Virus record (IMG/VR): IMGVR_UViG_3300005356_000019
Span: 1-22,686 of that record
Length of the DNA stretch: 22,686 nucleotides
Source: a virus
Direction: 5' to 3' (one strand)
The notes under the pieces are model-generated. The model was not told the origin of the DNA. It saw nothing but the letters and a program-made list of their open reading frames with translations, and searched no databases. The position numbers were made by a program, and so were the translations under genes. Of the stretch, positions 6,788 through 22,594 are shown piece by piece; position 1 is the first letter of the stretch; each line of letters opens with the position of its first letter.

Positions 6788-7243
6788 CTACAGGTCTTCA
6801 GGCTTGAGCGTGTACTTGAACATGAACTGAGCGCGCAGCGCGCCGTGCAGCGAGCGCATCCAGCCGACATCGGTCTGGCATCCGAGATAACGGATCGCTC
6901 CATTGCCGTGCCGCCCGGTCTTGACGATCTGCTCGTTCAACTCCGCGTCGGTCAGCACCCGCTTGATCAGCTCGCGCCGCAGCGTAGTGATGTCGGAGCC
7001 AACCTCGTCGGCCTGCTGCACGATGACGATCTCCGGTGTCATCTGCACGCTGGTCGGCCGGTGCGCCGGACGCATCGATACATCGGTCGCGTCGTTGGTT
7101 TCCTCATCGCCGTCGAACACAATCGCCGCCGGCAGATGCTCGGCGGTAAGGTCGACGTTGTTGCGCACTGCGGTACGGATGTTCGGAATGGTGGCGACCA
7201 CCTCGAGCAGCCGCGCCAGGATGTCCTCGCGAACGTCAACCAT
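6788..7243 (-). CDS. Probable tail completion or tail terminator protein, 151 residues
   Basis: The protein begins with a helix typical of tail terminator and completion proteins (REDILARLLEVVATIPNIRT), then a strand (EHLPAAIVFDGDEE). The middle holds MTPEIVIVQQADEVGSDITT and LRRELIKRVLTDAEL; the end is beta (QFMFKYTLKPEDL). This helix-strand order and its place right before the major tail protein support the call: it would cap the tail tube where it meets the head. It overlaps the upstream gene by eight bases. Exact family not confirmed. Confidence 0.7.
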   Translation of the reverse strand: MVDVREDILARLLEVVATIPNIRTAVRNNVDLTAEHLPAAIVFDGDEETNDATDVSMRPAHRPTSVQMTPEIVIVQQADEVGSDITTLRRELIKRVLTDAELNEQIVKTGRHGNGAIRYLGCQTDVGWMRSLHGALRAQFMFKYTLKPEDL

Positions 7244-7592
7244 TGACGGCTTTCAGCAGGAACCGCACCTCGCCGAGATCCTCGCCGTTCGGACTGCCGC
7301 GCAGTTCATAGGAGCGCACCGTCCAAGTGCGGCCATTGAAGGCGAGAACCGCGTCGAGATAGTCCTCACGATCGATGCCGTTCTCGGCAAGCTCCGGAAT
7401 GCGGGCAAACGCACCAGGCCCGACATCGCGCACCTCGCCGGACCCGGCCGGCAATATCTTCGGCCGCGTGTCGTCGATCACGGTAATGTCGGCCACCGCG
7501 CCATCCGTCGTGCTTGTCACGGTGAGCACCGCTTCCACACCGATCTCGGCATAGACCGGGTCATAAAGCAGCGCGCTGTAATCGACCGGCAT
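7236..7592 (-). CDS. Probable head-closure or neck protein, 118 residues
   Basis: No family is certain. The size and beta-rich make-up (AVLTVTSTTDGAVADITVID, then FNGRTWTVRSYELRG, VRFLLKAV) suit a head-closure (stopper) protein, and such a gene is expected between the connector and the tail terminator. The ATG overlaps the methyltransferase stop (TGATG), and the end overlaps the next gene by eight bases. The position is strong, the fold reading weak. Confidence 0.65.
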   Translation of the reverse strand: MPVDYSALLYDPVYAEIGVEAVLTVTSTTDGAVADITVIDDTRPKILPAGSGEVRDVGPGAFARIPELAENGIDREDYLDAVLAFNGRTWTVRSYELRGSPNGEDLGEVRFLLKAVNG

Positions 7593-8218
7593 CAGGCTTG
7601 CCTCTTGAATGCAAACGTCCCGATGTCCTCGCGGCCGAGATCGGTCTCGAACTTGCTCTGCGACACCAGGTCAAAGCCGCACCATTTCATGGCGTAGAGC
7701 AGCCCCGGCTGCGAAAAATACCACATGTGTTCCATCGGCCGGAAATGCTTCGAGCGCAGCACGTGCTCGGCATCGGTGAAGATCGGCAGCGAGACGAAGA
7801 CCCACTGGCGCACGTTGACGAGGAGCCGCTGGAAGTCTGGAATGTGCTCCAACACGTCCCACAAACTCATGGCATCGAATTGTGCGTGGTACGGGTCGAC
7901 GTGCAGATCACGCGCGTTGAGCCATTCGATGCCGGCCGGGTTCACGTCGTAGCCGTAGGTGTCGCGCTTGTGCTCCAGGCGCCGTTTGATGAATGCGCCG
8001 CAGCCAATGCCGACATCGACCAGCGGTCCCTTGTAGTGCAGTTCGACGAAGTCGACGCGGCCTTGCATCAGCGACAGCCCGAGCGGTGTATGTGCATCGC
8101 GGGCAAACCGATCGAAGTATTCCTGGTCGTAGGGTTCGACGCCGGCCGTCACCGGATAGTGGCCGATGCCGAGCTGCGGCCACCAGGTCAGGCGGCTTGC
8201 CGCGAATTCTGAAACCAA
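7592..8218 (-). CDS. Class I SAM-dependent methyltransferase
   Basis: About 208 residues. The Rossmann core is clear: PLVDVGIGCGAFIKRR is motif I, TYGYDVNPAGIEWL gives the acidic residue after strand 2, and DAMSLWDVLEHIPD is the usual motif near strand 4. VRQWVFVSLPIFTDAEHV and MEHMWYFSQPGLLYAMKWCG follow as in Methyltransf_23-type enzymes. The start is uncertain. An ATG at 8281 would overlap the glycosyltransferase by 94 bases. TTG at 8218 overlaps by 31. A CTG at 8191 would give a CTGA overlap and a product starting at TWWPQLGIGHYP, which looks like the natural beginning. Its TGA overlaps the next ATG. With the two genes upstream it may finish a sugar structure by O-methylation. It has no DNA target domain, so it is unlikely to be a DNA methylase. 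Confidence 0.8.
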   Translation of the reverse strand: MVSEFAASRLTWWPQLGIGHYPVTAGVEPYDQEYFDRFARDAHTPLGLSLMQGRVDFVELHYKGPLVDVGIGCGAFIKRRLEHKRDTYGYDVNPAGIEWLNARDLHVDPYHAQFDAMSLWDVLEHIPDFQRLLVNVRQWVFVSLPIFTDAEHVLRSKHFRPMEHMWYFSQPGLLYAMKWCGFDLVSQSKFETDLGREDIGTFAFKRQA

Positions 8219-9072
8219 CGGAAAAACTGTCCGACCGGGTCGGTGATGTCCTTCATGCAATTGTGCGGCATATGTGTGCATCGGCAGAACCTGTCCGGCA
8301 TGGCAAACCCGATGCGGCTGAGATCGAGCCGCGGGTCGGTGATCTTCTCGGGCGCGTTGTGGCCGCCGTGACCGCCAAGCACGATGAAAGTCCGCATCTT
8401 CAGTGCAAGCGCAGCCGGCACAATCCAGCCGACGCCGCCGACCACGATGTCCGCATCACGCACCAGTGCAAGCAACTCGCGCACCTTGAGTTCGCCGAAA
8501 ATAAAATGCTGGTGCGCTGGCGGCAGATTTCCGACCAACCATTCCTGGTTCACGGCGAGAGAGGCAACCGCAACCACGGTATGGGTCGCCATCAGCTCGG
8601 CCGCCAGCGCGTTGACATATTCCGGTTTCGGGTTACGCGCCGGATTGAGCCATTCGCTGCGAACCGTCACCGGCCGGATGACCGCAATTGGCCGGTCAGA
8701 CACGACCGGCGACGGTCCCATATCCGGCAGATCGAACAGCGCCGGGTCGAACTTGACGCGCAGTTTGGCGCTCCAGCGGCTCTCCAGTGACCGGATGATC
8801 GAGCTTGCGGCTATGTTGCCGTAGTTAAGGATCACCTCTCGGGTCGACAGTGGCGGACGCGACCAGCGGTCCTCCGACTGCAGCGCGATGTTGTCTGTCT
8901 GCGTGCGCAGTTTCCTGTGGCCGCGCACAAACCGGATATCGAGATCCTCGTACAGTTCCGGCCAGGGTGTATCGAGCCAGAGATCGAATTGCGATGCAGC
9001 GGCGCGCATGAACGGCCGCGCGTACACATTGTCGCCGAGTCCGTACATCCCCCGAAGCAGGATGGTCCTCAA
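8188..9072 (-). CDS. Glycosyltransferase family 9-like protein (heptosyltransferase fold)
   Basis: This 294-residue protein looks like a GT-B fold enzyme of the ADP-heptose:LPS heptosyltransferase type. RTILLRGMYGLGDNVYARPF at the start is the first strand plus the G.GD loop. RPIAVIRPVTVRSEW opens the second half. ELLALVRDADIVVGGVGW with AALALKMRTFIVLGG (about 199-234) matches the donor-binding region. FCRCTHMPHNCMKD near 262-275 holds three Cys and two His that could bind a metal. I chose TTG at 9072, which overlaps the previous stop (TTGA) and leaves the first strand whole; ATG at 9048 would cut it off. It may modify a virion protein, or the host surface during infection. The acceptor is unknown. 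Confidence 0.75.
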   Translation of the reverse strand: MRTILLRGMYGLGDNVYARPFMRAAASQFDLWLDTPWPELYEDLDIRFVRGHRKLRTQTDNIALQSEDRWSRPPLSTREVILNYGNIAASSIIRSLESRWSAKLRVKFDPALFDLPDMGPSPVVSDRPIAVIRPVTVRSEWLNPARNPKPEYVNALAAELMATHTVVAVASLAVNQEWLVGNLPPAHQHFIFGELKVRELLALVRDADIVVGGVGWIVPAALALKMRTFIVLGGHGGHNAPEKITDPRLDLSRIGFAMPDRFCRCTHMPHNCMKDITDPVGQFFRWFQNSRQAA

Positions 9073-9701
9073 GCAGCGCGCCGCTCGCCGAGTGCTTCCT
9101 GCAGACTGATCACCGGTAGCAGATCGGCCCACGCCGTGCCGGGCGAGGCATTGTAGGCCGCGATCCCCATCGCCTTGAGCGATGGCACGATGGTCACCAG
9201 ATCGGCCTTTTGGATGTCGTAGCAGCCCGGTTTGTGCCGCCATCGGTGCGGCTTGTGATGATGCGTGCGGCCGTCCGCCGCCAGTCGTCCATCGGCGCCG
9301 AGCCAGACGATCGTTCCGCCGCGGCCGACCAGATGTGCCGCCAGATTAGTCGCAGCCGTCAGCGACGTGCGCCGCTGCATCAGACTGTTGCGCTCGATCG
9401 CCAGTCCCGGCGGGTTGGTCTTGCCGCATACCAGCACCTTGCGATCTCCGCCCACCATGCGCGACGTGGTCACGACACGGCCGGGAAAGCTTGCGATCGC
9501 CGCCCGGTTGTCTTCCGACCAGCGCCAGTCGCCGAAATACAGAATGTCGGCCCATGGCACGGCATAGGCGCTCGAGTTGATCGCGATCACGCGTCGTCCG
9601 CGCAGGCTTCCAAGATCCTGTCCAAGTACCGATGGCCCACCGCCAATGACAAACACCGTCTCGCCGGGCCACTCGTGCGGCACCGACCAGAATGCCGTCA
9701 T
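9069..9701 (-). CDS. DUF115/MptE-like Rossmann-type protein, possibly glycan-related
   Basis: This 210-residue protein begins with TVFVIGGGPSVLGQDL, a nucleotide-type GGGPS loop at residues 20-24. RRVIAINSSAYAVPWADILYFGDWRW follows (written here in two parts: RRVIAINSSAYAVPW, ADILYFGDWRW). This order (GGGPS, iaiN, aD, D) is that of DUF115/MptE-like proteins, some of which act near glycosyltransferases, and I know similar proteins from many proteobacterial prophages. A His-rich segment (THHHKPHRWRHK) lies near 145-157. It overlaps the connector gene upstream (ATGA) and the glycosyltransferase downstream (TTGA). It may make or move a sugar for the next enzyme. The true reaction is unknown. Confidence 0.7.
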   Translation of the reverse strand: MTAFWSVPHEWPGETVFVIGGGPSVLGQDLGSLRGRRVIAINSSAYAVPWADILYFGDWRWSEDNRAAIASFPGRVVTTSRMVGGDRKVLVCGKTNPPGLAIERNSLMQRRTSLTAATNLAAHLVGRGGTIVWLGADGRLAADGRTHHHKPHRWRHKPGCYDIQKADLVTIVPSLKAMGIAAYNASPGTAWADLLPVISLQEALGERRAA

Positions 9702-10318
9702 GCCACGGTCAGCCGCCGATATGGCGCGATCAGATCGACGACCGGCGCCGACAGGTAACCCGCTGACGCTGTCGACAGCGCCGAGGTGAAGTAGCTGATG
9801 CGCGTGTCGCCGTGCTGCACCTCACGGATCGACGAGTCGCGCGTGCCGGACGTGCGCCCCTCGCGCACCGCTTCGATCACCGCTTTCTGCAGCCTGGCCG
9901 GCGCTTCCTCGGGCAGGTCGTAACCACCCGAATAGGTGATCGCGACTGAACTCGCGCCGCACCAGCCATTGGCCCAGACGCGGCCGGATACCGGATCGAG
10001 CTGATAGTCCAATGCCGTTGCACCGGCAGTCGAGAACTCCAAGATCTCGACGACCGGATAGAGCGACAGCGTCAGCGCCATTCGCGCCGGCATCGTTTCG
10101 CCGCGGTCGAACGTGAACGTCTCCAACGCCTCGGCGCGGCCGAAACGGCGGTGGCAATATTCTGCAATGATGCGTGACTGGAAGGTGATCATCGCCTGCA
10201 GCGCAGCGTCTTCGCTGTCGCCGCCGATGCCAAGCGCCAGTTTCAGATCGTCGAGACTGATCAGGTCCGGCCCGGCGCTGTCGGTCGCCTCCTCGAGGAT
10301 TTCAAAGACCGAATACAT
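9698..10318 (-). CDS. Head-tail connector, gp6-like
   Basis: This 206-residue protein fits the phage gp6-like head-tail connector family, which forms the ring below the portal. The helical N-terminal part has the standard look: LISLDDLKLALGIGGDSEDA, then LQAMITFQSRIIAEYCHRRF. A middle beta part (LTLSLYPVVEILEFS, with VAITYSGGYDLPEEAPARLQ) and a helical part (KAVIEAVREGR) follow. I chose the ATG at 10318, in the TAATG overlap with the collagen-like gene; the open frame upstream to 10405 is only a shadow of that gene. Its stop overlaps the next ATG (ATGA). Confidence 0.85.
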   Translation of the reverse strand: MYSVFEILEEATDSAGPDLISLDDLKLALGIGGDSEDAALQAMITFQSRIIAEYCHRRFGRAEALETFTFDRGETMPARMALTLSLYPVVEILEFSTAGATALDYQLDPVSGRVWANGWCGASSVAITYSGGYDLPEEAPARLQKAVIEAVREGRTSGTRDSSIREVQHGDTRISYFTSALSTASAGYLSAPVVDLIAPYRRLTVA

Positions 10319-10854
10319 TATTTGAACCTGACCGGCTCGAGGACGCGCTTTTCGTCCACCTTGGCGTCCCTGCCGTCGCGCCCGCGCTTGATCGCGAGCC
10401 GCCATGCCTTGCCCTGTTCAGGCTTGTCGCTGGTGTCTTCCTCGGCGACGAACAGCGAGCCGCCATAGGTGACGCAGTCGCCCTTGAGGAACGCACCGTC
10501 GCGCCAGACGCCGCGGTTGATCATCAGGTCGGTGCGGATCTCGCGGCGGATTTCCGTATCGCCGCGCTTGAGGATCAGCGCCATAAAGCGGCCGCCGTCC
10601 TTGGCCTCGAACTCGAAGTCTTCCAATTGCATCGCATCGCGGCCGGCCGGGCCTTGTGGCCCAGCAATACCGCGTCCGCCTTCGGATCCCGCAGGTCCCG
10701 CCCGGCCGACTGGTCCCGGCTCGCCTTGCGGGCCGGGCACGCGCGACAGCGCACGGATTTCCTCGATGGCGCGCCGCGACAGGGCGAGCGCGGTCCCGAT
10801 GCATTGCCACAATGTATAGGTCGGTGGCGGAATGAGCGGCGGCTTGTTGCTCAT
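10318..10854 (-). CDS. Collagen-like fibre protein with a carbohydrate-binding-like module
   Basis: This 178-residue protein carries eleven unbroken Gly-X-Y triplets at residues 41-73 (GPQGEPGPVGRAGPAG and on), which form a collagen-like triple helix in phage fibres. Before them are a Pro-rich start and a helical segment (LSRRAIEEIRALSRV) that could start the trimer. After them, GVWRDGAFLKGDCVTYGGSL and the later W in KAWRLAIKRG follow the pattern of small chitin-binding-like modules (W..G..Y..GD.V.y.g.l) found at fibre tips. The ATG at 10854 lies one base past the stop of the repeat protein, and the gene ends in a TAATG overlap with the connector gene. It is probably part of the same adhesion device as the repeat protein. 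Confidence 0.8.
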   Translation of the reverse strand: MSNKPPLIPPPTYTLWQCIGTALALSRRAIEEIRALSRVPGPQGEPGPVGRAGPAGSEGGRGIAGPQGPAGRDAMQLEDFEFEAKDGGRFMALILKRGDTEIRREIRTDLMINRGVWRDGAFLKGDCVTYGGSLFVAEEDTSDKPEQGKAWRLAIKRGRDGRDAKVDEKRVLEPVRFK

Positions 10855-10855
10855 G

Positions 10856-13549
10856 TCACGCCGCCATCATCAGGGCGATGATCACATTTTCATCCGGATC
10901 ATGATGGCCCATGGCGGCACCCTTGAAGATCGAGAGATTGACTTGCGCCTGGCCGGCGGACCCAGCTGCCGCATTGGCAGACGCCACCATCGGCAGGCGA
11001 GCGACGCTGTAGGCAGCGCCCTTGACGCCGATGTCGCCGAACGCGTGTCCGGCGAGAGCGACGACGCCTTTGGCTCTTCCGGCAATGAGTTTCGGACGAT
11101 AGCCGACCTCGCCGATCGCGAGCCCGACGAGCTCGGGCAGGACACCGTAGCCGACACCCTCGATAACAACCGGGCGAGGTCGGAAACGAATACCGCCGCC
11201 GCCAGCGACCGGTAGCTGCTCCTCGAGCGACCGCCCGATGGCTTCGCCAATGCCGGCCGCAGTGCCGACAGCTTCAGCAATAACGCCAGCTTCCGCACTG
11301 ACCGCGGCCGCCGCACCGATCCCGCTGGCGGTGCCAACACCTGCCGCAATGATGGCGCCGGTTGCCGATGCGGTCCCGACACCAGCAGCCGAGCCGACCG
11401 CAACCGTGATCGCACGGCCGGTCGCAGCCGCAGTACCGATACCTTCGGCGGTGCCGGTGGTCGTTCCCGGATCGGATAGCGCAAGAGCGGTGCCGTCGCC
11501 TTCGGCCGTTCCGACCGATGCGGCCGTGACCGTGGCAGTTGCCGCGCCGGTTCCCAGTCCGGCCGCAGAGCCTGCCGCAGCGGCTGTCGATCGACCTGTA
11601 GCACTTGCCGCACCGACGCCGACTGCATTGCCTGCGCCGGCACACGTCACCGCAGCGCTTGCAGATGCCGCACCGATACCAGCGGCAGAGCCCGCGCTCG
11701 CACTAGTCCCGCGCCCGACGCCTGACGCCGTACTCGTGCCGGCCGCCGTGCCCGCCGAGGGCATGACGGCGGTACCGGTCGCGCTCGCCGCGCCCGTGCC
11801 TGCGCTCGTCCCGTCGCCCGAGACGACAGCCGTGGCTGTGCTGCCCGTAGCAGTCGCTGCGCCAATGCCGGCGGCTGTGCCTACGCCTGCACCGATCGTG
11901 ACGCCTGTCGCAGTTGCAGCACCGATGCCAGCCGCACTACCGGCACCCGCGCCAATCGCTGCGCCTGTCGCCGATGCGGCGCCTATCCCGGCGGCCGTAC
12001 CGACTCCCGCGCCAACCGCAACCCCGGTCGCGGACGCCGCGCCTATACCTGCCGCAGTTCCTACACCCTCAAGGATCGTGATCGATGATCCGGTAGCCGC
12101 CGCAGTACCGACGCCCGCCGCGGTGCTTGCATCCGCAGACTTGATGCCGGTCCCGGTGGCACTCGCCGAACCGGTGCCGGTCGCCGTGCTGGCATTGCCC
12201 GTCGCAATTGATGCGCCTGTGGCTGACGCAGCACCAACACCGTCAGCGTCGCCAACACCGTCGCCGGCCGGCGGTGCGTAGATCTTGAACGCGCCAGCGA
12301 TGACGACATGTCCGGCCGAAACGGACGCCGTCGCGGTGAGGTTGCCGGTCGCGCCACTGGTCAGCTTGACGGCATCGAAGATCGCGAGCGAACCGTCGGC
12401 ACCCGTTGTGACGAGACTGTCGGCGCGCTCGGACCATGTCGTCGTCGGCGCGGTGGTGACCGTCGCACCCGACGCTCCAGCCGGATCAGTCGCGTTGAAC
12501 GCGGACCAAGCAGCCTCCTGCCCGCCGCACGCCATTGCGACAATCAGGTCTTCGATCTGCGTGGTCGTCAGCCCGGTGCCGGTGACCGCCGTAGTACCGG
12601 TGGCTGTGGTGAAACTAGTCTGCGTGTCCTTCGGCGAGGACGTGTTGACGTTTCGATAGGCGACGATCCGCCCCTGCGCCTGACTTGGAGCAACCGGATG
12701 GGTAAACGTCAGGTTCGGGTTGGACGCACCCCGAACGCAGTAGGCCATCAACCCCGAAGGCAGGGCAGAGCTGGTGGTTAGGGTGTTGTTGTTCTTCTGC
12801 TCTGCGACCAGCGTCCACTCACCGCCGGTTGGCAGCGTGACCGACGTGGTCGATGCGATACGCGACGTGATGCAGGCGACCAGCAGATCGCCCGCTTGCA
12901 GGGTACCGCTGATGCCGGTGGTGACCAGTGCATGCGCGGTGGTGGCGACTGCGACTTCGTTGGAGACGCCGACGAATTCCCAGAGCAGTCCTGTCGTATC
13001 GAGCTGAATGTACGGGTCGTTAGTGGTACCGGTAACGTCAGCTAGATTGCAGTCAAATCTGGTTAGCCCTGTCGGAACGGTGCCGTTTTGCTCACCAACT
13101 GTATGAGCAACGACATTGACCGTCGCTGATCTCGGAAACGCATAGATGCTTGGTATGCTGGCAGTATAAACACCTGTCCCGGTTGGAAACGTGCCGGGAT
13201 CACACAAAATCGGCGTCTGAGCAGACAGCGATGCGCCAGCGATCTTGTTGGCGACCGACGAAACCTGACGAAAACGAACGGTGTCGGCGTTATGATTGCC
13301 TAAAAACGTGACGACATTGAGCGAGAAAAACCCGGTTCCCCCACCTGTTGGAACCGCCGATGTATCAAAAACCAAAAATGCTTGGTTACATGAATAATTG
13401 GCACCGGATATTGAGTTAGAAACTGCTGAAGTCGTATTCGTCGTATTAGTCGCATTTGTGGCGGCACGAGCAGTTGAATAAGTTGTGCTAGTCGTACCCG
13501 CAGCAGAGGCATCTGCCGTGCTGCTGTAGACAATATAGATTGTCCCCAT
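10856..13549 (-). CDS. Large fibre-like virion protein with Gly/Ala/Thr tandem repeats
   Basis: This 897-residue protein has four parts. Residues 1 to about 190 are Thr/Ser-rich and contain NQAFLVFDTSAVPTGGG, the mark of a jelly-roll domain seen in phage and secreted surface proteins. About 195-425 follow a pattern known from phage fibres: AGDLLVACITSR, LPTGGEWTLVAEQ, GLMAYCVRGASNPNLTFTHP, GRIVAYRNVNTSSP. Residues about 428-771 are some 18 repeats of 18-20 residues built on GVGTAAGIGAASATG. About 772-897 are a non-repeat end (VGYGVLPELVGLAIGEVGYR and on). GGAAGGG-like purines (GGAAGGG) precede the ATG, which overlaps the upstream stop. It is probably a side or tail fibre that touches the host. 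The repeats could form a stiff beta shaft. Position before the connector genes is unusual for a fibre. Confidence 0.8.
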   Translation of the reverse strand: MGTIYIVYSSTADASAAGTTSTTYSTARAATNATNTTNTTSAVSNSISGANYSCNQAFLVFDTSAVPTGGGTGFFSLNVVTFLGNHNADTVRFRQVSSVANKIAGASLSAQTPILCDPGTFPTGTGVYTASIPSIYAFPRSATVNVVAHTVGEQNGTVPTGLTRFDCNLADVTGTTNDPYIQLDTTGLLWEFVGVSNEVAVATTAHALVTTGISGTLQAGDLLVACITSRIASTTSVTLPTGGEWTLVAEQKNNNTLTTSSALPSGLMAYCVRGASNPNLTFTHPVAPSQAQGRIVAYRNVNTSSPKDTQTSFTTATGTTAVTGTGLTTTQIEDLIVAMACGGQEAAWSAFNATDPAGASGATVTTAPTTTWSERADSLVTTGADGSLAIFDAVKLTSGATGNLTATASVSAGHVVIAGAFKIYAPPAGDGVGDADGVGAASATGASIATGNASTATGTGSASATGTGIKSADASTAAGVGTAAATGSSITILEGVGTAAGIGAASATGVAVGAGVGTAAGIGAASATGAAIGAGAGSAAGIGAATATGVTIGAGVGTAAGIGAATATGSTATAVVSGDGTSAGTGAASATGTAVMPSAGTAAGTSTASGVGRGTSASAGSAAGIGAASASAAVTCAGAGNAVGVGAASATGRSTAAAAGSAAGLGTGAATATVTAASVGTAEGDGTALALSDPGTTTGTAEGIGTAAATGRAITVAVGSAAGVGTASATGAIIAAGVGTASGIGAAAAVSAEAGVIAEAVGTAAGIGEAIGRSLEEQLPVAGGGGIRFRPRPVVIEGVGYGVLPELVGLAIGEVGYRPKLIAGRAKGVVALAGHAFGDIGVKGAAYSVARLPMVASANAAAGSAGQAQVNLSIFKGAAMGHHDPDENVIIALMMAA
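11235..12268 (-). repeat. Coding tandem repeats, about 18 units of 54-60 bases
   Basis: The stretch encodes repeats of a Gly-x-Gly-Thr-Ala-Ala-Gly-Ile-Gly-Ala-Ala-Ser-Ala-Thr-Gly type. The four units from about residue 490 to 570 are nearly identical, while the outer ones have drifted and vary in length. This suggests growth by unequal copying from the middle. DNA third positions differ between units, so the protein pattern is under selection. The opposite strand is open through the whole stretch, as expected from the base pattern, and is not taken as a gene. Confidence 0.85.
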
Positions 13550-13884
13550 CAGACGAACCCTTCCAGCATTTCGCTGATCGCGGTTCGCAGATCGTCCTGC
13601 TCGTTGCCGGTCCTCTCGCGCGGCAACACGGGCGGGTTGGTGATGATGATCTGGTGGGTGACCTCAGTCGGCCCGCGCGCGAAGGTCACGTCGAGGAACA
13701 GCCGTCCCTCGCCAACCATGCGCGCGTCGTTGATGCGGAAGGTGCAGCCCTTGTGTTCAACGCTCTTGCCCCGCTCGATCACGCCGAGCAGCGCGTTGGT
13801 CTTCAGCGCGTAGATCTCCAGCGTCTGCGCGCGCTCGTCTTTCCGGCTGGCGCGAATCGCGGCGATGTCCTCGACAATGCCCAT
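13549..13884 (-). CDS. Unknown phage protein, 111 residues
   Basis: No family is recognised. A helical, charged N-terminal part (DIAAIRASRKDERAQTLEIY) is followed by beta strands (CTFRINDARMVGEGRLFLDV) and a helical end (LRTAISEMLEGFV). The gene starts six bases after the previous stop, and its TGA overlaps the ATG of the large repeat protein (TGATG). The coupling suggests it may help to assemble or attach that protein, but this is not shown. Confidence 0.72.
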   Translation of the reverse strand: MGIVEDIAAIRASRKDERAQTLEIYALKTNALLGVIERGKSVEHKGCTFRINDARMVGEGRLFLDVTFARGPTEVTHQIIITNPPVLPRERTGNEQDDLRTAISEMLEGFV

Positions 13885-13890
13885 GGATGG

Positions 13891-14337
13891 CTATCTGCCG
13901 AACAGTTTCTTCACCGCATACGCTCGCGCCTCGTGCATGCGCGCCTTGACGAACGGCGCATCGGTCAGCCGCCCATCCGCCTCGGCCTCGAGCACCGCGT
14001 TGGTCATCGCCAGCGTGACGGCCGATTTGACTTCCAGGTGTCGCGAATTGACCGAGATGCCGACACCCGACGCGATCACCGGATAGATGCGCTGTGCCCG
14101 CGGGCGCAACTCATCCGGGAGCAGCGACGGATAGCCGTGATCGATCAGCCAGGCATGCGACCAGGCGCGCAGGTTGAAGCGCACGAGCTCCGACTTGGTG
14201 CGCGCCAGATGGATCGCCGCAACCATGCCGGCGTCGTCGTGCTGCGCGAACTGCGGCGCCACCTTGCCCCACAGCCGGCGCATGCCCTCGACATCCACCG
14301 CCTCCAGGCAGGCAACCAGCTCGCGCGAGTGGTACAT
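13891..14337 (-). CDS. Unknown phage protein, 148 residues
   Basis: No family is recognised. The protein looks mainly helical (SRELVACLEAVDVEGMRRLW, then ARTKSELVRFNLRAWSHAWL) with a Pro/Arg turn (DELRPRAQRIYP) and a basic C-terminus. It has no signal peptide or membrane segment. ATG at 14337 shares a base with the HNH stop. The frame stays open upstream to 14391 inside the HNH gene, so the HNH gene may have replaced the original start region of this gene. It is likely a small head or neck protein by position. Confidence 0.75.
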   Translation of the reverse strand: MYHSRELVACLEAVDVEGMRRLWGKVAPQFAQHDDAGMVAAIHLARTKSELVRFNLRAWSHAWLIDHGYPSLLPDELRPRAQRIYPVIASGVGISVNSRHLEVKSAVTLAMTNAVLEAEADGRLTDAPFVKARMHEARAYAVKKLFGR

Positions 14338-15287
14338 CAACTCGCCAGACAAACGTGTCCAATATTGTGCGAACCGCAATCGAGACAGCACATCGCGACG
14401 TGCTTACCGTGCCTGCCTTGCCTCAGTTGCAGATTGTCCGGCGCATTGTTCTGATGGTTGCCGTCAATGTGATGAACAGTTTCGGTTCGCCGCAATGGAC
14501 GGCCGAGCTTGCGCGCCATCACGAGGCGATGCTCAAGCACGTACATCATATTCCCGTTACGACCATTTTTGACTCGCATCGACGCCATCGGGTCGTCTTT
14601 ATCGAGCCACACCCAAACATATCCTTGACCATCGTGGGTCTTCCCACCACGCCAATGCGGACTGCCGGGACCAACCAAACCGGAGCGTATGATATCTGGA
14701 TTGTATCTATTCAAAGCAGACGTTATCTGTCTTTCAGACCGACCAAGTGCCTTCGCAGTCTGCTTAAAGGTCATACCAGATTGGTATAAACGTCTTGCCT
14801 CCTTAATCTCATCATCGGTAATTCGCGGCTTCTTTCGGGTTTCTACTCCTGCTTTCAACAATGCATGGCTCACGGTCCACACCGAACAACTAAACTGCTC
14901 TGCCAACGATTGTGCAGAACGTCCCTCCTGATAGAGTTGTATCAACTCGTTTCGAAGCTTCTCGTCCCTAAACAGTCTCGATTTGTCGATTGCCACACCG
15001 TGCTTGGCAAGCGCGCCATACACAGTCTTGTCATTCACACCAAGTCGCTTGGCAACTTCAATGCCACTGCCTGTCTTCTGGTAGAGAGCAACAATCTCAT
15101 CATCAGAGACACGGCTTTGTCGCTTTTCCGCGTGCGATAGCGTTTTAATGCCATGCGCTCCAAGCACGTAGTATACCGTCTGGTCTGAAATCCCATACAG
15201 CGCAGCTACCTGCGCGGCTGATTGCAGCCTTTCATAATCGGCAATGATCTTCTGGTCCGACACCGGCCTTCTAGACTTGCCAGCCAT
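14337..15287 (-). CDS. HNH endonuclease with four tandem helix-turn-helix units (homing-type)
   Basis: This 316-residue protein is probably a mobile DNA endonuclease. Residues about 9-200 hold four units of 40-50 residues, each ending in a recognition-helix-like segment: AALYGISDQTVYYVLGAHGI, AKRLGVNDKTVYGALAKHGV, AEQFSCSVWTVSHALLKAGV and AKALGRSERQITSALNRY. From about 215 there is an HNH_3-type nuclease: EHRLVMARKLGRPL, then ETVHHIDGNHQNNAPDNLQL with the HH and N residues. The end has a Cys/His set (CCLDCGSHN...HVC) that could bind zinc. The chosen ATG has GGAG eight bases upstream; an in-frame ATG at 15377 is the alternative. Several 60-base lines here are only 40-48% GC by hand count against about 68% in a neighbouring line, a sign of transfer. 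Its stop overlaps the next ATG (TGATG). Confidence 0.85.
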   Translation of the reverse strand: MAGKSRRPVSDQKIIADYERLQSAAQVAALYGISDQTVYYVLGAHGIKTLSHAEKRQSRVSDDEIVALYQKTGSGIEVAKRLGVNDKTVYGALAKHGVAIDKSRLFRDEKLRNELIQLYQEGRSAQSLAEQFSCSVWTVSHALLKAGVETRKKPRITDDEIKEARRLYQSGMTFKQTAKALGRSERQITSALNRYNPDIIRSGLVGPGSPHWRGGKTHDGQGYVWVWLDKDDPMASMRVKNGRNGNMMYVLEHRLVMARKLGRPLRRTETVHHIDGNHQNNAPDNLQLRQGRHGKHVAMCCLDCGSHNIGHVCLAS

Positions 15288-15377
15288 TGTCTGGTCTCCA
15301 GCGGAGAGACCAAACATTGACACATAAGGCCCATCAAAAGCAAGACCATTGTTGTCTGCGAACGTAATGTAACCCAT
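15288..15377 (-). other. Open leader in frame with the HNH gene; possible fragment of an interrupted gene
   Basis: Thirty codons from an ATG at 15377 run without a stop into the HNH gene. The peptide (GYITFADNNGLAFDGPYV and on) looks like the start of a phage structural protein and not like the basic HTH protein that follows. The ATG has no good ribosome binding site. It may be an N-terminal extension of the HNH protein, or the severed head of a gene into which the nuclease gene was inserted. I cannot decide which from this sequence. Confidence 0.35.
15292..15312 (-). promoter_or_regulatory. Hairpin holding the ribosome binding site of the HNH gene
   Basis: Minus-strand RNA pairs TGGTCTC with GAGACCA around the seven-base loop TCCGCTG. 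The GGAG that precedes the ATG at 15287 by eight bases begins in the loop and continues into the 3' arm, so the fold would hide most of it. This would hold down translation of the nuclease. Confidence 0.45.
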
Positions 15378-15383
15378 TGATAT

Positions 15384-15812
15384 CTAATCCAAACTTATCG
15401 ATGTCGCAGTTGTGAGTCTAGGCGTCACCCCGTTACCAGCGGCTATAGTCGGCGACACGCCACCGCTCCACAGGATCGCCGTGGTGCCGCCGCCGGTCTT
15501 GCCGGTGCTAAAGAAATTGATGGTGCCGCTGCCACCCGTGCCGGCCGGGAAGTCGATGTTCGCCGCCGGGCTGACGCTGCCGGTCGTTGCCGTGCTCCAG
15601 CCGGTCGAGCGCGCGACGTTGACGCGAGCATATGAGGTGTATGTCGTCTCGCTCGACGACATCGTGCCGCTGTCGGTCGGGTCTGCGGTATGCAGCCCGA
15701 CGTGGATATTCGTTTCGGGCGACGACGATGCATTGATCGCATAGTTCGCCCAAGTCGTGGCGGAGAAGACCAAATTTAGGATTGAATTCTCAGTCGCATC
15801 AGCGATCGACAT
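15384..15812 (-). CDS. Phage virion protein of the LHTADP type, 142 residues
   Basis: The segment HVGLHTADPTDSG followed by TTYTSYARVNVARS matches a pattern I know from small structural and fibre-associated proteins of many tailed phages (VGLHTADPG ... SYARV). Their exact role is unsettled. The N-terminal helix (ENSILNLVFSATTWANYAIN) and the Gly/Thr/Ser-rich beta C-terminal half agree with this. AGGAG stands eight bases before the ATG at 15812. It ends at 15384, seven bases before an ORF that runs into the HNH gene. It may decorate the head or cap a fibre. Confidence 0.8.
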   Translation of the reverse strand: MSIADATENSILNLVFSATTWANYAINASSSPETNIHVGLHTADPTDSGTMSSSETTYTSYARVNVARSTGWSTATTGSVSPAANIDFPAGTGGSGTINFFSTGKTGGGTTAILWSGGVSPTIAAGNGVTPRLTTATSISLD

Positions 15813-15828
15813 GGTTATTTCTCCTGTT

Positions 15829-16209
15829 TTAAGCCGGCATGACCAGAACGAATTCCCTGATGCGTACGGGACCGCCGGCCACGATCCGGTTGCTGTTCAG
15901 GCGGATGACGGCGTCGCCTTTGCTGTCACTCACGTCGCACTCGAACACCACGCCACCAACCGCATCGACGATACGCGCCTTGACGGCGGTGCCCGATGCC
16001 TTGGCGGACGGATCTTCGGCGATGGTGTTGAATGTGACGGCGCCATTCACGGGCGGTGCGGCGCAGGGCTTGGAGCATTGCAGCGAGGCGAGCACCATGC
16101 CGGATGACGACAGCAGTTCGATCCGGCCGTTGCCGCGCTCGCCATCGATCAGCGTTGTCACCTCGCCGACCATCGCGTTGCGCGCTTCGTCGGATAGATT
16201 GATCTGCAT
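15829..16209 (-). CDS. Unknown phage protein, probable beta-rich head or decoration protein, 126 residues
   Basis: No named family is recognised. After a short helical start (INLSDEARNAMVGEVTTLID) the protein is mostly short beta strands: GRIELLSSSGMVLASLQC, VNGAVTFNTIAED, GTAVKARIVDAVGGVVFECD. This pattern suits a small immunoglobulin-like or beta-sandwich structural protein. The ATG at 16209 has GAGGA upstream and begins two bases after the previous stop. Head decoration is the most natural job for such a protein between portal and connectors, but this is inferred. Confidence 0.75.
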   Translation of the reverse strand: MQINLSDEARNAMVGEVTTLIDGERGNGRIELLSSSGMVLASLQCSKPCAAPPVNGAVTFNTIAEDPSAKASGTAVKARIVDAVGGVVFECDVSDSKGDAVIRLNSNRIVAGGPVRIREFVLVMPA

Positions 16210-16211
16210 CG

Positions 16212-16652
16212 CTATTCCTCGAACGCCGCGACGATGCGGTTCTCGGCATCGCGCTCGAAGCGGAAACTGCGCGGTCGGGCGAATTGCTTCTCGGCACCCG
16301 CCGTGCGGCCGGTGAACGGCTCGGCCAGCATCGCCGTCGCGTTGGCCATTTCCGCCACGACATCCTGCGGTGCCAGCACGTCTATGCCGCCCTTGTGGCT
16401 TTCCGCCATCAGTGCGTCGCGGACGATCGCGTCGACGTGCAGCGTGCGGATCACCTCGGTGACCTGCTCGATGGTTGGTGGTGGGCCGCAGTCGCCCTTC
16501 GCGCCGCGCTCGGGCTGCCGCGTCTCGAGCTCGACGAGACGGAAGCCCAGCTTCTCAAGCTCACCCTTGATCGGTGCGACCTGTCGATCCGAATATTCTT
16601 TGACCTGCGGGATGATGCCTTCCAGCAGGGCTGTGACGACACGATGATCCAT
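16212..16652 (-). CDS. Unknown phage protein with N-terminal coiled coil, 146 residues
   Basis: No family is recognised. Residues about 10-45 (VKEYSDRQVAPIKGELEKLG and on) have a heptad-like helical pattern, followed by a short Gly/Pro hinge (GAKGDCGPPP). A second helical part and an Arg/Phe-rich segment near the end (ARPRSFRFERD) complete it. GAGG stands eight bases before the ATG at 16652, nine bases after the portal stop, so the gene is part of the same transcript. Coiled coil plus GXX hinge resembles a short trimeric spike or fibre base, but the evidence is thin. Confidence 0.75.
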   Translation of the reverse strand: MDHRVVTALLEGIIPQVKEYSDRQVAPIKGELEKLGFRLVELETRQPERGAKGDCGPPPTIEQVTEVIRTLHVDAIVRDALMAESHKGGIDVLAPQDVVAEMANATAMLAEPFTGRTAGAEKQFARPRSFRFERDAENRIVAAFEE

Positions 16653-18852: not shown

Positions 18853-20814
18853 TCAGTTCCAGGTCATCGTCTGGGTCCAGGCAACGACGCCTGTCCGACG
18901 CAGACCCCAGTTCAGATCGAGCAACATGCGAACGCCGATGCAGTCGGTCTGCCAGAGTGAACGCACGGGCGCGGCAACAGTAGCCGGCGAACCAACAGTC
19001 GAGATCGCCAGCGGCGTCGTGTCCTCCATGTGGATCGTCGCCTGGTCGGACACGTCGAAGCGCGGCGTGTCACCAGTCACGGACACGAAGTCCGCAGCGT
19101 CGACCAGCAGCATTGTGTCAGCCGTGACGTTGCTGCTCGAGATGACCGGCATGCCTTGCAACGTTCCCCCCGTCAGCTCTGCCTTGAACGGGAATTCGCC
19201 GCCGCCCGCCGTAGCCGGCAGCAACGAGGCCGCCAGTACATCGGCCGGGTTCATGATCCACACCGGCGAGCGCAGATTACCGTTGGTGCCGGTGATCAGC
19301 GCCCCGGTCAGCCCGCGGATATCGCCGATCAGCGCGTTGATGCCACCGGCCGCGGTTGCCGTGGTGGCGCTAACGCCTGCCTTCAAGCCGGCCGGTCGGG
19401 TGGTCGTGGCCGCCGTCGCATCGAGCAGCACCGAGTCGATCGCAACCGCGGTGTCCTCGATGATGGCTTGGCGGATCAGCCCTTCGATCGCGGGCGTCGA
19501 GTGCTCCGCGATGTCGCGCGTGAAAACGCTGATCACCGCCATCTTTTTCGGCGTGAACGTGATGGCCGAGAATGCGCCTTGCCGCACCGGGATCGCCGCG
19601 CCTTGCGCAACGAAGCTGCCGGCAATCGTCGGTGTGCTCGCCCGCGTCGGCATCGACACGATGCCCGCGCTGCCGAACGAGAATTTCCCGCCACGCGATG
19701 CCAGTGCCGGATAAACCGAGTTCGGCATCAGTGCGGCAAAGAATTCCGTGATCGAAGTGTTGACGAGCTGGCTGGCCCATCCCGAGGTCACGGTGTCGGC
19801 CGGCACCGTCGCCGCGCGCGTGATCACGTTGAGAACCGCCCGCGTCGGTTCGTCGTCGCCGTATTCCTGCTTCATCACGTCGTATGGCGACTGCTTGGTG
19901 AAGTGCGCCTTGAGTTTGCACACCAGCGAGCGCAACACATAATCCTGCGGCGGGATCTTCTTGGCCATCGGTTGCGCCCAGACGGTCAGGCCGCCGCGCG
20001 CGAGAGATCCCTCGTGAGCCGTCTCGGCCTTGGCCACCGGCTTGGCCTCCACCGCCTTGTTCTTCTCGATCTGGCGCAGCCGCACCAGGTCCGCGTCGAT
20101 CGACTTGATCTCCTGATCGAGGGTGTCGATCTCTTCTGCCTCGGCCGCATCGGTGGTCCGATCATCGTCGAGGCTCTTCTGCATCACGGCTTCTTGACGC
20201 GCAGCACTGGCCGCACGCTTGTTTTCAAGCGCGCTTATTTGTTCGGCTATCGTTTTCATTTTGGTGCCCTCCAGGGCAATCGGTTGAGATCGTCCGGAGG
20301 CGCCCGGTGGGTTGAGAGACACGGCACCGCGAGCTTGCTGGCCTGACGCGGCCCGCTGCGCGGTGTCGAGAGAACGGATGGTGGTGATCGTGGCGGTGCT
20401 GTTCGCCGGAATGGTCACGGCCGATAGCTCGAGCCAATCCCATTTCTTGAAGCGAATGCCCTTCGTTGCGGGAATGATCTCGTGCTCGAGCGACTTGAAG
20501 CCGATCGAAAGACCGGGGACGAGGCCCGCCTTGATCAATGACCAGGCACGGTCGATCTCGGCGGTCACGCCCTTGGCGATCTGCGCAACGATCTCGATGC
20601 CGGCCTTGGTGACCTTGGCATGCGTCACATGACCGATCGGCTCATCGCTGCGATGCTGCCACAGTAACGGGATCGGCAGATTGAACTGCGCACCCATCGG
20701 TTCGACGACGTCGTTCATGCGGTCAGCCGTCGGCGTCGTCGCCATGCCGGTAATCGTGCGCGCGTCTTCGTCCACCCGCTTGATTTCAAGCAGGCTGTAA
20801 GCCCGGTTGAGCAT
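18853..20814 (-). CDS. HK97-type prohead protease fused to major capsid protein
   Basis: This 653-residue protein joins two proteins that are usually separate. Residues 1 to about 160 match the S78 prohead protease: LLWQHRSDEPIGHV carries the likely catalytic His54, GLSIGF the likely Ser103, and WLELSAVTIPAN the likely Glu129. A charged, coiled-coil stretch at about 186-260 looks like the delta (scaffold) domain of HK97 capsid proteins. From about 290 to the end it is an HK97-fold capsid protein, with the N-arm, the segment around SVFTRDIAEHSTPAIEG and a typical C-terminal part. Start choice: ATG at 20814 has GAGG eight bases upstream. A longer open frame back to 20988 overlaps terL, crosses the hairpin region and looks non-coding. 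A second strong start lies inside at codon 186. The protease would trim the delta domain during head maturation. Confidence 0.9.
   Translation of the reverse strand: MLNRAYSLLEIKRVDEDARTITGMATTPTADRMNDVVEPMGAQFNLPIPLLWQHRSDEPIGHVTHAKVTKAGIEIVAQIAKGVTAEIDRAWSLIKAGLVPGLSIGFKSLEHEIIPATKGIRFKKWDWLELSAVTIPANSTATITTIRSLDTAQRAASGQQARGAVSLNPPGASGRSQPIALEGTKMKTIAEQISALENKRAASAARQEAVMQKSLDDDRTTDAAEAEEIDTLDQEIKSIDADLVRLRQIEKNKAVEAKPVAKAETAHEGSLARGGLTVWAQPMAKKIPPQDYVLRSLVCKLKAHFTKQSPYDVMKQEYGDDEPTRAVLNVITRAATVPADTVTSGWASQLVNTSITEFFAALMPNSVYPALASRGGKFSFGSAGIVSMPTRASTPTIAGSFVAQGAAIPVRQGAFSAITFTPKKMAVISVFTRDIAEHSTPAIEGLIRQAIIEDTAVAIDSVLLDATAATTTRPAGLKAGVSATTATAAGGINALIGDIRGLTGALITGTNGNLRSPVWIMNPADVLAASLLPATAGGGEFPFKAELTGGTLQGMPVISSSNVTADTMLLVDAADFVSVTGDTPRFDVSDQATIHMEDTTPLAISTVGSPATVAAPVRSLWQTDCIGVRMLLDLNWGLRRTGVVAWTQTMTWN
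20257..20272 (-). promoter_or_regulatory. Internal ribosome binding site and ATG for a free capsid protein
   Basis: Inside the fusion gene, GGAGGG (20272-20267) stands seven bases before an in-frame ATG (20259-20257, codon 186). This is a better ribosome binding site than that of the full gene. The ATG falls exactly between the protease domain and the coiled-coil delta domain. Translation from here would give a 468-residue capsid protein without protease, the form needed in hundreds of copies. The spacing and site are seen directly; use in the cell is inferred. Confidence 0.6.
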
Positions 20815-20841
20815 GGGATTTACCTCAGCGGCGTTTTGAAA

Positions 20842-20891
20842 GGACGGACGGCGGGAAGTAAGCACCGTCCGTCCCTCGAATGAGGGCGGAC
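20842..20891 (-). promoter_or_regulatory. Two overlapping, mutually exclusive hairpins between terL and the capsid gene
   Basis: In the 103-base gap after terL, minus-strand RNA can fold in two ways. Hairpin A (20891-20867) pairs GTCCGCCCTC with GAGGGACGGAC around loop ATTC, with one bulged A. Hairpin B (20874-20842) pairs GGACGGACGG with CCGTCCGTCC around a 13-base loop. Both need the bases at 20867-20874, so only one can form. This is the geometry of an attenuator. Hairpin B is followed by TTTCAAAAC, a weak U tract, so termination is uncertain. The capsid ribosome binding site, further along, is free in both folds. It could instead be an inserted palindromic repeat. Confidence 0.5.
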
Positions 20892-20917
20892 AGAGCGGGG
20901 GATTTAGCCCACCCTCA

Positions 20918-22594
20918 TCAGGTGAAAAACAGTTCGACCCGCGGCTGACTCTTCGGCCCAGGATTGAGCGCCAGAAGCGCCGCCGCATTGAACAAAGCCA
21001 TCAGCGGATCGATCTTGCCGAAGCCGCTGTCGTCGCGCGCGATGCGCATGCCGGTCGGCGTCGGCACGATGCGCGCATTGCCGGCGCACCATTGCATCAG
21101 CGCCTGGCCGCCATGCTTGAACGAGCCGTCGACCAGTTTGCGCTCAACCGTCTTGATCGCACCCATCAGCGAGATGCCCTGCCGCACACCGGCCAGCAGG
21201 TTGTTCTCCTGCGTGACACCGATGCGCGCCAAGGCGTCAACAATTCCGCCGATCCCGATCGCGTCGACACCGACACCGGCGAGCTTCTTCGACGCCTTCA
21301 CCTTCTCGACGATGTCGGTCACATAGCTGATGTCGTCCGGCAGTTCCTCGACCACCGTCAGGTCGCCATCGGCCTGGAACTTCTCGTAAAACCCGGTGTT
21401 GGCCTTGCGCCGCTCGAGCCCTTCCGGCGAGATGAGCGCATGCGTCCAGGCCAGATGCCGCTTGCTATCCTTCTCGCGCCCGACCACCGCAATGCCGAGC
21501 AGATCGTCCAGTCCACCGCCATCGATGCCGACAACCGCCGCCTCCGAGCGCTCCAGCACCGCATCCAGCGTCAGGCCCGCCTCGACGCCCCGGTTCCAGT
21601 AGTTCGCACCGGCCCAGCCATCGGCCCGCAGGCTCATGCCGATCTGCACATTGAAATGCTGGCTGGCGATCAGCGCCAGCGCAGCCGGGCCATCCGCCTC
21701 GGCCCGCAACACCTCGCGCGCGAGAAAGTCCTCGTTGGTCGAAAGCCCCAGGTTCGGGTTGACCAGTGGCCAATAGCGCCGGTCCTTCCAGCCATCATCG
21801 CGCGCATACCGGTCCGGCAACTCGTACAGCACCGGCAGCAGCGGCATGCGCGTCTTGCCGTCACGCACCGCGCGCGCCATCGCCAGCTCGGACGCAAACA
21901 CGCCGCTCGGCGTCTGCTTGCTCTGCGTCGTCACTTGAAACAGGAACCCGTCCGGCCGCTTGGTCAGCGCACCGCGCAACTCGATGAAGACATCCGCCGC
22001 ATTGCTCTTCTTCGCGAACACATGGGTTTCGTCGATCATCGTCCCGGTTGCCTTGCTCCCGGTGATGACGTCGGTGTCCGCCGCCTTGATCTGCAGCGTC
22101 GCACCGGACTGCCGATGTGTGATCTTGCGAATGTGGTCCTGAACCTGGAACACCTTGGAGAGCTCAGCATCGAGCCGGATCGTGCCACGCGCCTGCTTGT
22201 AGGCGATCGACGCTATTTCCATCGTCGGTGCGATAAATAGAAACTCAGCTTCTGGCCGACGATTGACGATCATCGCCGTCAACATCACGGCGCCGCCGTT
22301 CGACGACTTGCTGTTGCCTTTCGGAATGAGCTGGAAGACTTCCGAGATATGCCGGGTATTGGTCTCGCGATCGTATGACCCGAACAGCGCGGCAACGATC
22401 GGGTAGAACCACTCGCCGCACACCTCGCCCAGCGTCGGCGTGCCGATCACATCCGGCAGCCGCAGCCGCTTGAACACCCGCAGCGCCTTCGCCGCCTCTT
22501 CGGGAAACAACGGCAGATCGGGCACCAGCGATCGGCCCTCGAGGATCCGCGTTTCCCAGTCGATGCAGCTCGTGTCCCACGACTGCGTGAGCAT
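20918..22594 (-). CDS. terL: Phage terminase large subunit (packaging ATPase and nuclease)
   Basis: This 558-residue protein is the motor that pumps DNA into the prohead and cuts it. The N-terminal ATPase half shows a Walker A-like loop PKGNSKSSNGG at about residues 91-101, a variant of the RKNGKS form of the Terminase_1 family. A Walker B segment GTMIDETHVF lies at 184-193, with the acidic pair at D188 and E189, and a coupling-type VTTQSK follows near 221. The C-terminal half fits an RNase H-like nuclease: VVGIDGGGLDDLLG from about 354 supplies aspartates at 358 and 363-364, and VGVDAIG near 441 supplies another. The length is normal for the family. The ATG overlaps the upstream stop (TGATG). 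The assignment is from motif reading only, but the set of motifs and the position leave little doubt. Confidence 0.93.
   Translation of the reverse strand: MLTQSWDTSCIDWETRILEGRSLVPDLPLFPEEAAKALRVFKRLRLPDVIGTPTLGEVCGEWFYPIVAALFGSYDRETNTRHISEVFQLIPKGNSKSSNGGAVMLTAMIVNRRPEAEFLFIAPTMEIASIAYKQARGTIRLDAELSKVFQVQDHIRKITHRQSGATLQIKAADTDVITGSKATGTMIDETHVFAKKSNAADVFIELRGALTKRPDGFLFQVTTQSKQTPSGVFASELAMARAVRDGKTRMPLLPVLYELPDRYARDDGWKDRRYWPLVNPNLGLSTNEDFLAREVLRAEADGPAALALIASQHFNVQIGMSLRADGWAGANYWNRGVEAGLTLDAVLERSEAAVVGIDGGGLDDLLGIAVVGREKDSKRHLAWTHALISPEGLERRKANTGFYEKFQADGDLTVVEELPDDISYVTDIVEKVKASKKLAGVGVDAIGIGGIVDALARIGVTQENNLLAGVRQGISLMGAIKTVERKLVDGSFKHGGQALMQWCAGNARIVPTPTGMRIARDDSGFGKIDPLMALFNAAALLALNPGPKSQPRVELFFT

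Follow-up and report, generated by a model that had tools for sequence, protein, structure and literature searches.

A predicted glycan-writing gene cassette of variable composition at the head-tail joint of an HK97-type phage and its relatives

The window analysed here, the whole 22,686-nucleotide stretch of IMG/VR virus record IMGVR_UViG_3300005356_000019, carries on its minus strand the late block of an HK97-type phage, as established by gene calls and family searches. Genes follow one another in the order terminase, protease-capsid frame, portal, several small genes, repeat fibre, collagen-like protein and gp6-like connector, then a trio encoding a Maf-like protein, a GT9-like protein and a methyltransferase (hereafter the cassette). 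These are followed by a small gene in head-closure position, the probable gene of the tail terminator and that of the tail tube. Coordinates are reported in Table 1. No Pfam or PHROG family matched the gene in head-closure position, which directly adjoins the connector in cassette-free relatives and stands where a related Phenylobacterium prophage has head closure. The GC content and third-position GC of the trio are those of the neighbouring virion genes. Elsewhere in the block, the protease and the major head protein seemingly form a single frame of 711 aa (18853-20988), annotated likewise in PAJU2 gp03. The stretch from portal to repeat fibre (13549-16652) holds small genes, few of which are shared with relatives; a 346-aa protein encoded there (14337-15377) has several helix-turn-helix units and an HNH domain, and matches the model of the CRISPR-repeat-binding protein Cbp1 below the cut-off of that model.

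Table 1. Cassette genes, their borders and the second methyltransferase family; positions refer to the window unless a locus identifier precedes them.
Feature	Position	Strand	Size	Basis
Maf/GT42-like protein (DUF115, MptE-like), predicted sugar transferase	9069..9701	-	210 aa	PHROG and fold
GT9/TibC-like GT-B glycosyltransferase (predicted)	8188..9072	-	294 aa, TTG start	PHROG 6804 and fold
Class I SAM methyltransferase	7592..8281	-	229 aa	PF13489 (E 4e-12), PHROG 6564 (7e-63)
Possible metal finger C263-x-C265-x4-H270-x-C272 of the GT9-like protein	8257..8286	-		Motif only
gp6-like head-tail connector, upstream cassette border	9698..10324	-		PF05135 (1e-5), PHROG 442 head-tail adaptor (3e-25)
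Gene in head-closure position, downstream cassette border	7236..7592	-		Position only
Probable tail terminator, neighbour outside the cassette	6788..7243	-		PHROG 4204 (E 0.009, weak)
PF13578 methyltransferase in relatives	L293:15412-15999; L347:10919-11725; L357; L366; L338; L386; L356; L333; L011; L088			

The first-pass annotation of this DNA had described three coupled genes between a gp6-like connector and neck genes, with ATGA, TTGA and TGATG junctions. This arrangement was found as described: ATGA joins the connector to the Maf-like gene (9698-9701), TTGA the Maf-like to the GT9-like gene (9069-9072), and TGATG the methyltransferase gene to the downstream gene (7590-7594). The description had left out the 94 bases shared by the GT9-like and methyltransferase genes (8188-8281). 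TTG is the likely start of the GT9-like gene, because a start at the next ATG (9048) would cost the predicted fold its first strand. The methyltransferase ATG at 8281 is embedded in the codons CGA-TGC of the GT9-like gene. CGA is used at this place in 64 of 99 relatives, which are not independent of one another, compared to 12% of their arginine codons overall, and the ATG at 8281 therefore looks selected. At the overlap, RNA structure was no better than that of shuffled sequences (z -0.03), a terminator-like match was at chance level, and a search for sigma-70-like promoters found none.

The Maf-like window protein, which itself had no Pfam match, matched PHROG 4603, named 'alpha-2,3-sialyltransferase' (E 1e-19), and 21 of its 32 homologues matched PF01973 (MptE-like) at E <= 0.01, with a best value of 9.5e-7. 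Its structure was predicted with a pLDDT of 90.3. In a structure search, the top match of the model was Maf (PDB 5MU5; Z 14.9 over 189 residues), followed by the sialyltransferase CstII of family GT42 (Z 11.8), and profile alignment to GT42/CstII gave an E value of 0.013. The model has the catalytic-domain fold of Maf, and the protein combines the GT42 fold with an N-terminal G-P-S nucleotide-binding motif; fold and GPS-type motif are common to Maf, CstII and the window protein. Among the 32 homologues, G22 is kept in 31, P23 in 30 and S24 in 31, and N42, D58, D137 and N184 are invariant or nearly so. Compared to Maf, the window protein is short, with only about 210 aa and none of the extra domains. 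A homologue also lies directly after the long tail protein gene of Caulobacter phage CcrPW (L394:6001-6651), where no GT9-like partner was seen; it is placed in the same way in related giant Caulobacter and Brevundimonas phages, with a methyltransferase gene a few genes on.

The GT9-like protein matched PHROG 6804, for which no function is given (E 4e-95). It had no Pfam match, and the Pfam GT9 profile failed to match it or any of its 44 homologues. The predicted structure (pLDDT 97.1) has the GT-B fold of WaaC, WaaF and 3TOV. TibC and the plain GT9 enzyme 3TOV were tied on top of the matches, with Z 18.4 each, and the LPS heptosyltransferases WaaC (Z 16.2) and WaaF (Z 16.1) came next. D14, P134, R138 and E177 are invariant in all 44 homologues. 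Based on the offsets of the structure alignments, D14 aligns with TibC Asp110 and with WaaC Asp13, which we take to be the catalytic Asp of WaaC. In TibC, a bacterial autotransporter heptosyltransferase (PDB 4RAP, 4RB4), Asp110 is the catalytic base and the N-lobe is four-stranded, compared to six strands in the classical lobe (PMC4358343). The window protein shares with TibC its fold, this Asp position and, according to the secondary structure of the model, a four-stranded N-lobe. It lacks the N-terminal beta-barrel of TibC, and residue 1 of the model aligns with TibC residue 96. Heptose transfer, which the first-pass annotation had mentioned as the activity of GT9 enzymes, is not borne out by this comparison: the catalytic Asp position is kept, but Arg286 and Trp305, named as the sugar-binding residues of TibC (PMC4358343), correspond to Leu and Pro on our reading of the alignment. 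Both proteins also have a Cys-based finger near the C-terminus. That of the window protein, C-x-C-x4-H-x-C, is kept in 40 of 44 homologues and, by analogy, may bind a metal as does the four-Cys iron finger of TibC, from which it differs in ligands and spacing.

The Z scores of the two LPS heptosyltransferases bear on the possibility that the enzymes alter the host LPS at a late stage of infection, which would keep progeny or rival phages from binding to the dying cell or its debris. Every phage whose record matched the GT9-like protein infects a Gram-negative host or Synechococcus, which agrees with such a role, and P. aeruginosa phages such as D3 use LPS. However, TibC rather than WaaC tops the structural matches, and the N-lobe departs from the classical six strands. 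Moreover, in most lineages the genes stand in the late virion block rather than with lysogenic genes, and no membrane or flippase gene was seen alongside in the loci inspected. We consider modification of the LPS unlikely.

Enzymes that add sugar to proteins are the nearest structural matches of both transferase models, alone or in a tie, and the enzyme classes named in the first-pass annotation proved right at the level of fold. The proteins modified by these closest enzymes are bacterial, Maf acting on flagellin (PMC11339370) and TibC on an adhesin (PMC4358343). The phage enzymes might similarly glycosylate a flagellin, pilin or adhesin of the host surface, and so hide or expose a receptor. 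Yet late timing, as deduced from gene position, leaves little time for a surface protein to be renewed, and placement among connector genes would then be a mere convenience of expression; we regard a host surface protein as an improbable target. Even less credit can be given to DNA as the substrate, with the GT-B enzyme glucosylating modified phage bases. DNA-modifying GT-B enzymes of phages are known (cited in PMC12619734), but the best folds here are those of protein or LPS transferases, the late virion block would be an unusual location, and the window proteins inspected included none recognisable as base-hydroxylating or nucleotide-modifying.

The conservation of the cassette was analysed on GT9-like loci collected from IMG/VR, phage records and bacterial genomes, clustered at 90%, of which 75 non-redundant loci with full flanks were retained. 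Far from being rarely found together, the three genes stay together across phages: all three kinds are present in 65 of the 75 loci, as counted from direct profile matches, in a survey that leans towards the kin of the window because most sampled loci were best-scoring matches. The methyltransferase gene is found in 72 loci and the Maf-like gene in 68, and no locus misses both partners. Divergence of the GT9-like protein follows that of the methyltransferase (Spearman 0.86, compared to 0.15-0.45 with neck and tail genes). The cassette recurs in hundreds of contigs, and chance is therefore ruled out.

Versions of the cassette are found in Pseudomonas phages PAJU2 and D3, in jumbo phage Eowyn, which has the trio, and in a Mesorhizobium prophage. 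PAJU2 gp10-gp12, which form the trio in order, and D3 orf7, orf12 and orf13 are the same three kinds of protein as in the window, also in the head-tail connector block; the GT9-like proteins of these two phages are 44-45% identical, and the methyltransferases 40% identical, to those of the window. Unlike in the window, their GT9-like and methyltransferase genes come after, not before, head closure, and in D3 the Maf-like gene stands by itself between those of the head protein and Ad1, so that two sites of one block are used. The parts of the cassette are annotated singly in phage records, and a literature search, which covered few subscription papers, found no paper treating the trio as a unit. 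A bacterial chromosomal origin was considered and rejected: the genome scan gave only 4 relatives, one of which (L144) plainly lies in a prophage, surrounded by head and tail genes. A scan of 289 genomes from the class to which G001 belongs gave one strong match, already among the known relatives, and a plasmid search gave two short, weak matches only.

Placement among virion genes, observed in the window, recurs widely. The 142 neighbour proteins taken from 34 diverse loci matched most often the families of head-tail adaptors, head closure, major head protein, Neck1 and tail terminator, and each tail-fibre family shown among these neighbours was represented by only two proteins. In a Phenylobacterium prophage, both transferase genes stand between the connector and head-closure genes. 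In a T4-like cyanophage, a GT9-methyltransferase pair is found downstream of neck gp14 and the tail sheath stabilizer, beside a small-terminase-like gene. Counting against a role in the virion, no recognisable virion genes flank the cassette of Eowyn.

Close relatives were then compared at this site, after retrieval with the connector and portal of the window. At the connector/head-closure junction, the trio was present in 47 unique loci and nothing in 15, the two transferases were accompanied by a methyltransferase of a second family, PF13578 (Methyltransf_24), in 10, and both methyltransferases were present in 7; one relative has the Maf-like gene alone. The PF13578 enzyme thus replaces or joins the methyltransferase of the window at the same site, and had no match in the phage record collection. 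In one relative (L386:10618-10965), a cupin resembling mannose-6-phosphate isomerase and D-lyxose isomerase is encoded between the Maf-like and GT9-like genes. On a quick portal tree of 48 rows, four of which fall on a very long branch and perhaps represent another portal type or a mis-assigned frame, the cassette underwent at least 5 changes of presence (gains or losses) and at least 12 of composition. What is new here is that, among close relatives, the site is empty or holds a second, different methyltransferase. We would expect a variable glycan locus to look like this, with tailoring enzymes exchanged at a constant site. The same observations can be read otherwise, the genes being accessory cargo of separate functions that happens to exploit a tolerant junction among the connector genes: the site is frequently vacant, and in some relatives it takes HNH genes or fibre genes. 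Against this, distant phages carry the same kinds of genes side by side at their connector junctions, and the divergence of the GT9-like protein parallels that of the methyltransferase; there is little probability, in our view, that the genes are unrelated cargo.

We favour, at slightly better than even odds, the reading that the cassette is an accessory, modular and late-expressed system for writing glycans, whose transferases and methyltransferases act on a protein of the phage particle. A phage virion glycosylation locus would be expected to encode glycosyltransferases, and two of them, predicted by fold, are found in the late block. The cassette would be made late, alongside the virion proteins, as its position suggests. 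The Maf-like and GT9/TibC-like enzymes would then use nucleotide donors to place one or two sugars on Ser/Thr residues of a particle protein, one or two exchangeable methyltransferases would cap the glycan, and the protein would receive its short methylated glycan before or during assembly. The findings are consistent with a methylated glycan on a virion protein as the product. The phages thus probably decorate a particle protein of their own with sugar, the host surface being a less likely target. As a guess, a CMP-sugar of the host could serve as donor, since CMP-Kdo can replace the own donor of a Maf enzyme (PMC11339370). A broader proposal, to which we give somewhat less than an even chance, is that of a portable Maf-like/TibC-like virion-glycosylation system with exchangeable methyltransferases, carried by tailed phages of Gram-negative bacteria, which has repeatedly settled at the head-tail joint and gives close relatives different glycan types on the particle.

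As to the acceptor, the suggestion that it might be the pair of fibres encoded just upstream found no support, as either of the two, fibres or cassette, can be present where the other is missing. Large fibre-like genes were found in cassette-free close relatives (L340, L374, L375, L284 and L376), and the cassette without such genes in L333 and in phages PAJU2, D3 and Psp6. The repeat fibre was accordingly rejected, being present in cassette-free phages and missing from some cassette-bearing ones; so was the collagen-like protein, whose gene is found in nearly all the phages, cassette-bearing and cassette-free alike. In a comparison of seven virion proteins between cassette-bearing and empty relatives, the Ser/Thr fraction, Ser/Thr-specific columns and gaps gave no consistent signal, and the stronger Ser/Thr columns in the head protein track two capsid types and uncertain ORF starts. 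Rather than the variable fibres, the acceptor is more likely a protein common to all these phages, such as the connector, tail tube or head. The repeat protein of the window (10856-13549) has 897 aa, is rich in Gly, Ala, Ser and Thr, has no family matches, and its gene contains a 60-base tandem repeat at 11902-12068. The C-terminal half of the collagen-like protein (10318-10854) is common to a PHROG named portal protein (phrog_1289, 4e-20), which is probably a fused or misnamed domain.

To our knowledge, phage particles have long been regarded as unglycosylated, and the proven cases of virion glycosylation that we found are mycobacteriophages. Phage-encoded glycosylation of virions is established in Che8 and other mycobacteriophages (Freeman et al. 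2023, as cited in PMC12619734, PMC10877033 and PMC11256854). There, glycosylation has been shown by experiment, on the capsid and tail tube of actinobacterial phages, with phage-encoded glycosyltransferases regarded as modifying particle proteins, as proposed for the window; the likeness drawn here is one of role. The cassette described here differs in being predicted only, in belonging to phages of Gram-negative hosts, and in including methyltransferases. If our reading is correct, glycosylation of the particle would be a widespread trait among phages that infect Gram-negative hosts, with the classical phage D3 and perhaps P1 as examples; it would bear on phage adsorption, particle stability and recognition by antibodies, and the cassettes would be a source of new protein glycosyltransferases.

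In phage P1, PmgO is homologous to the Maf-like protein of PAJU2 (41%). PmgO and PmgP (L395:5941-7127), whose morphogenetic role is unassigned, gave weak matches to PF01973 (MptE-like/DUF115), and pmgQ, near their genes, is annotated as a glycosyltransferase. Unlike in the window, no GT9-like or methyltransferase gene of the cassette was seen beside them. Both proteins are non-essential in lytic growth (PMC10695390), a dispensability that would be expected of a decoration. P1 may possess its own glycan locus.
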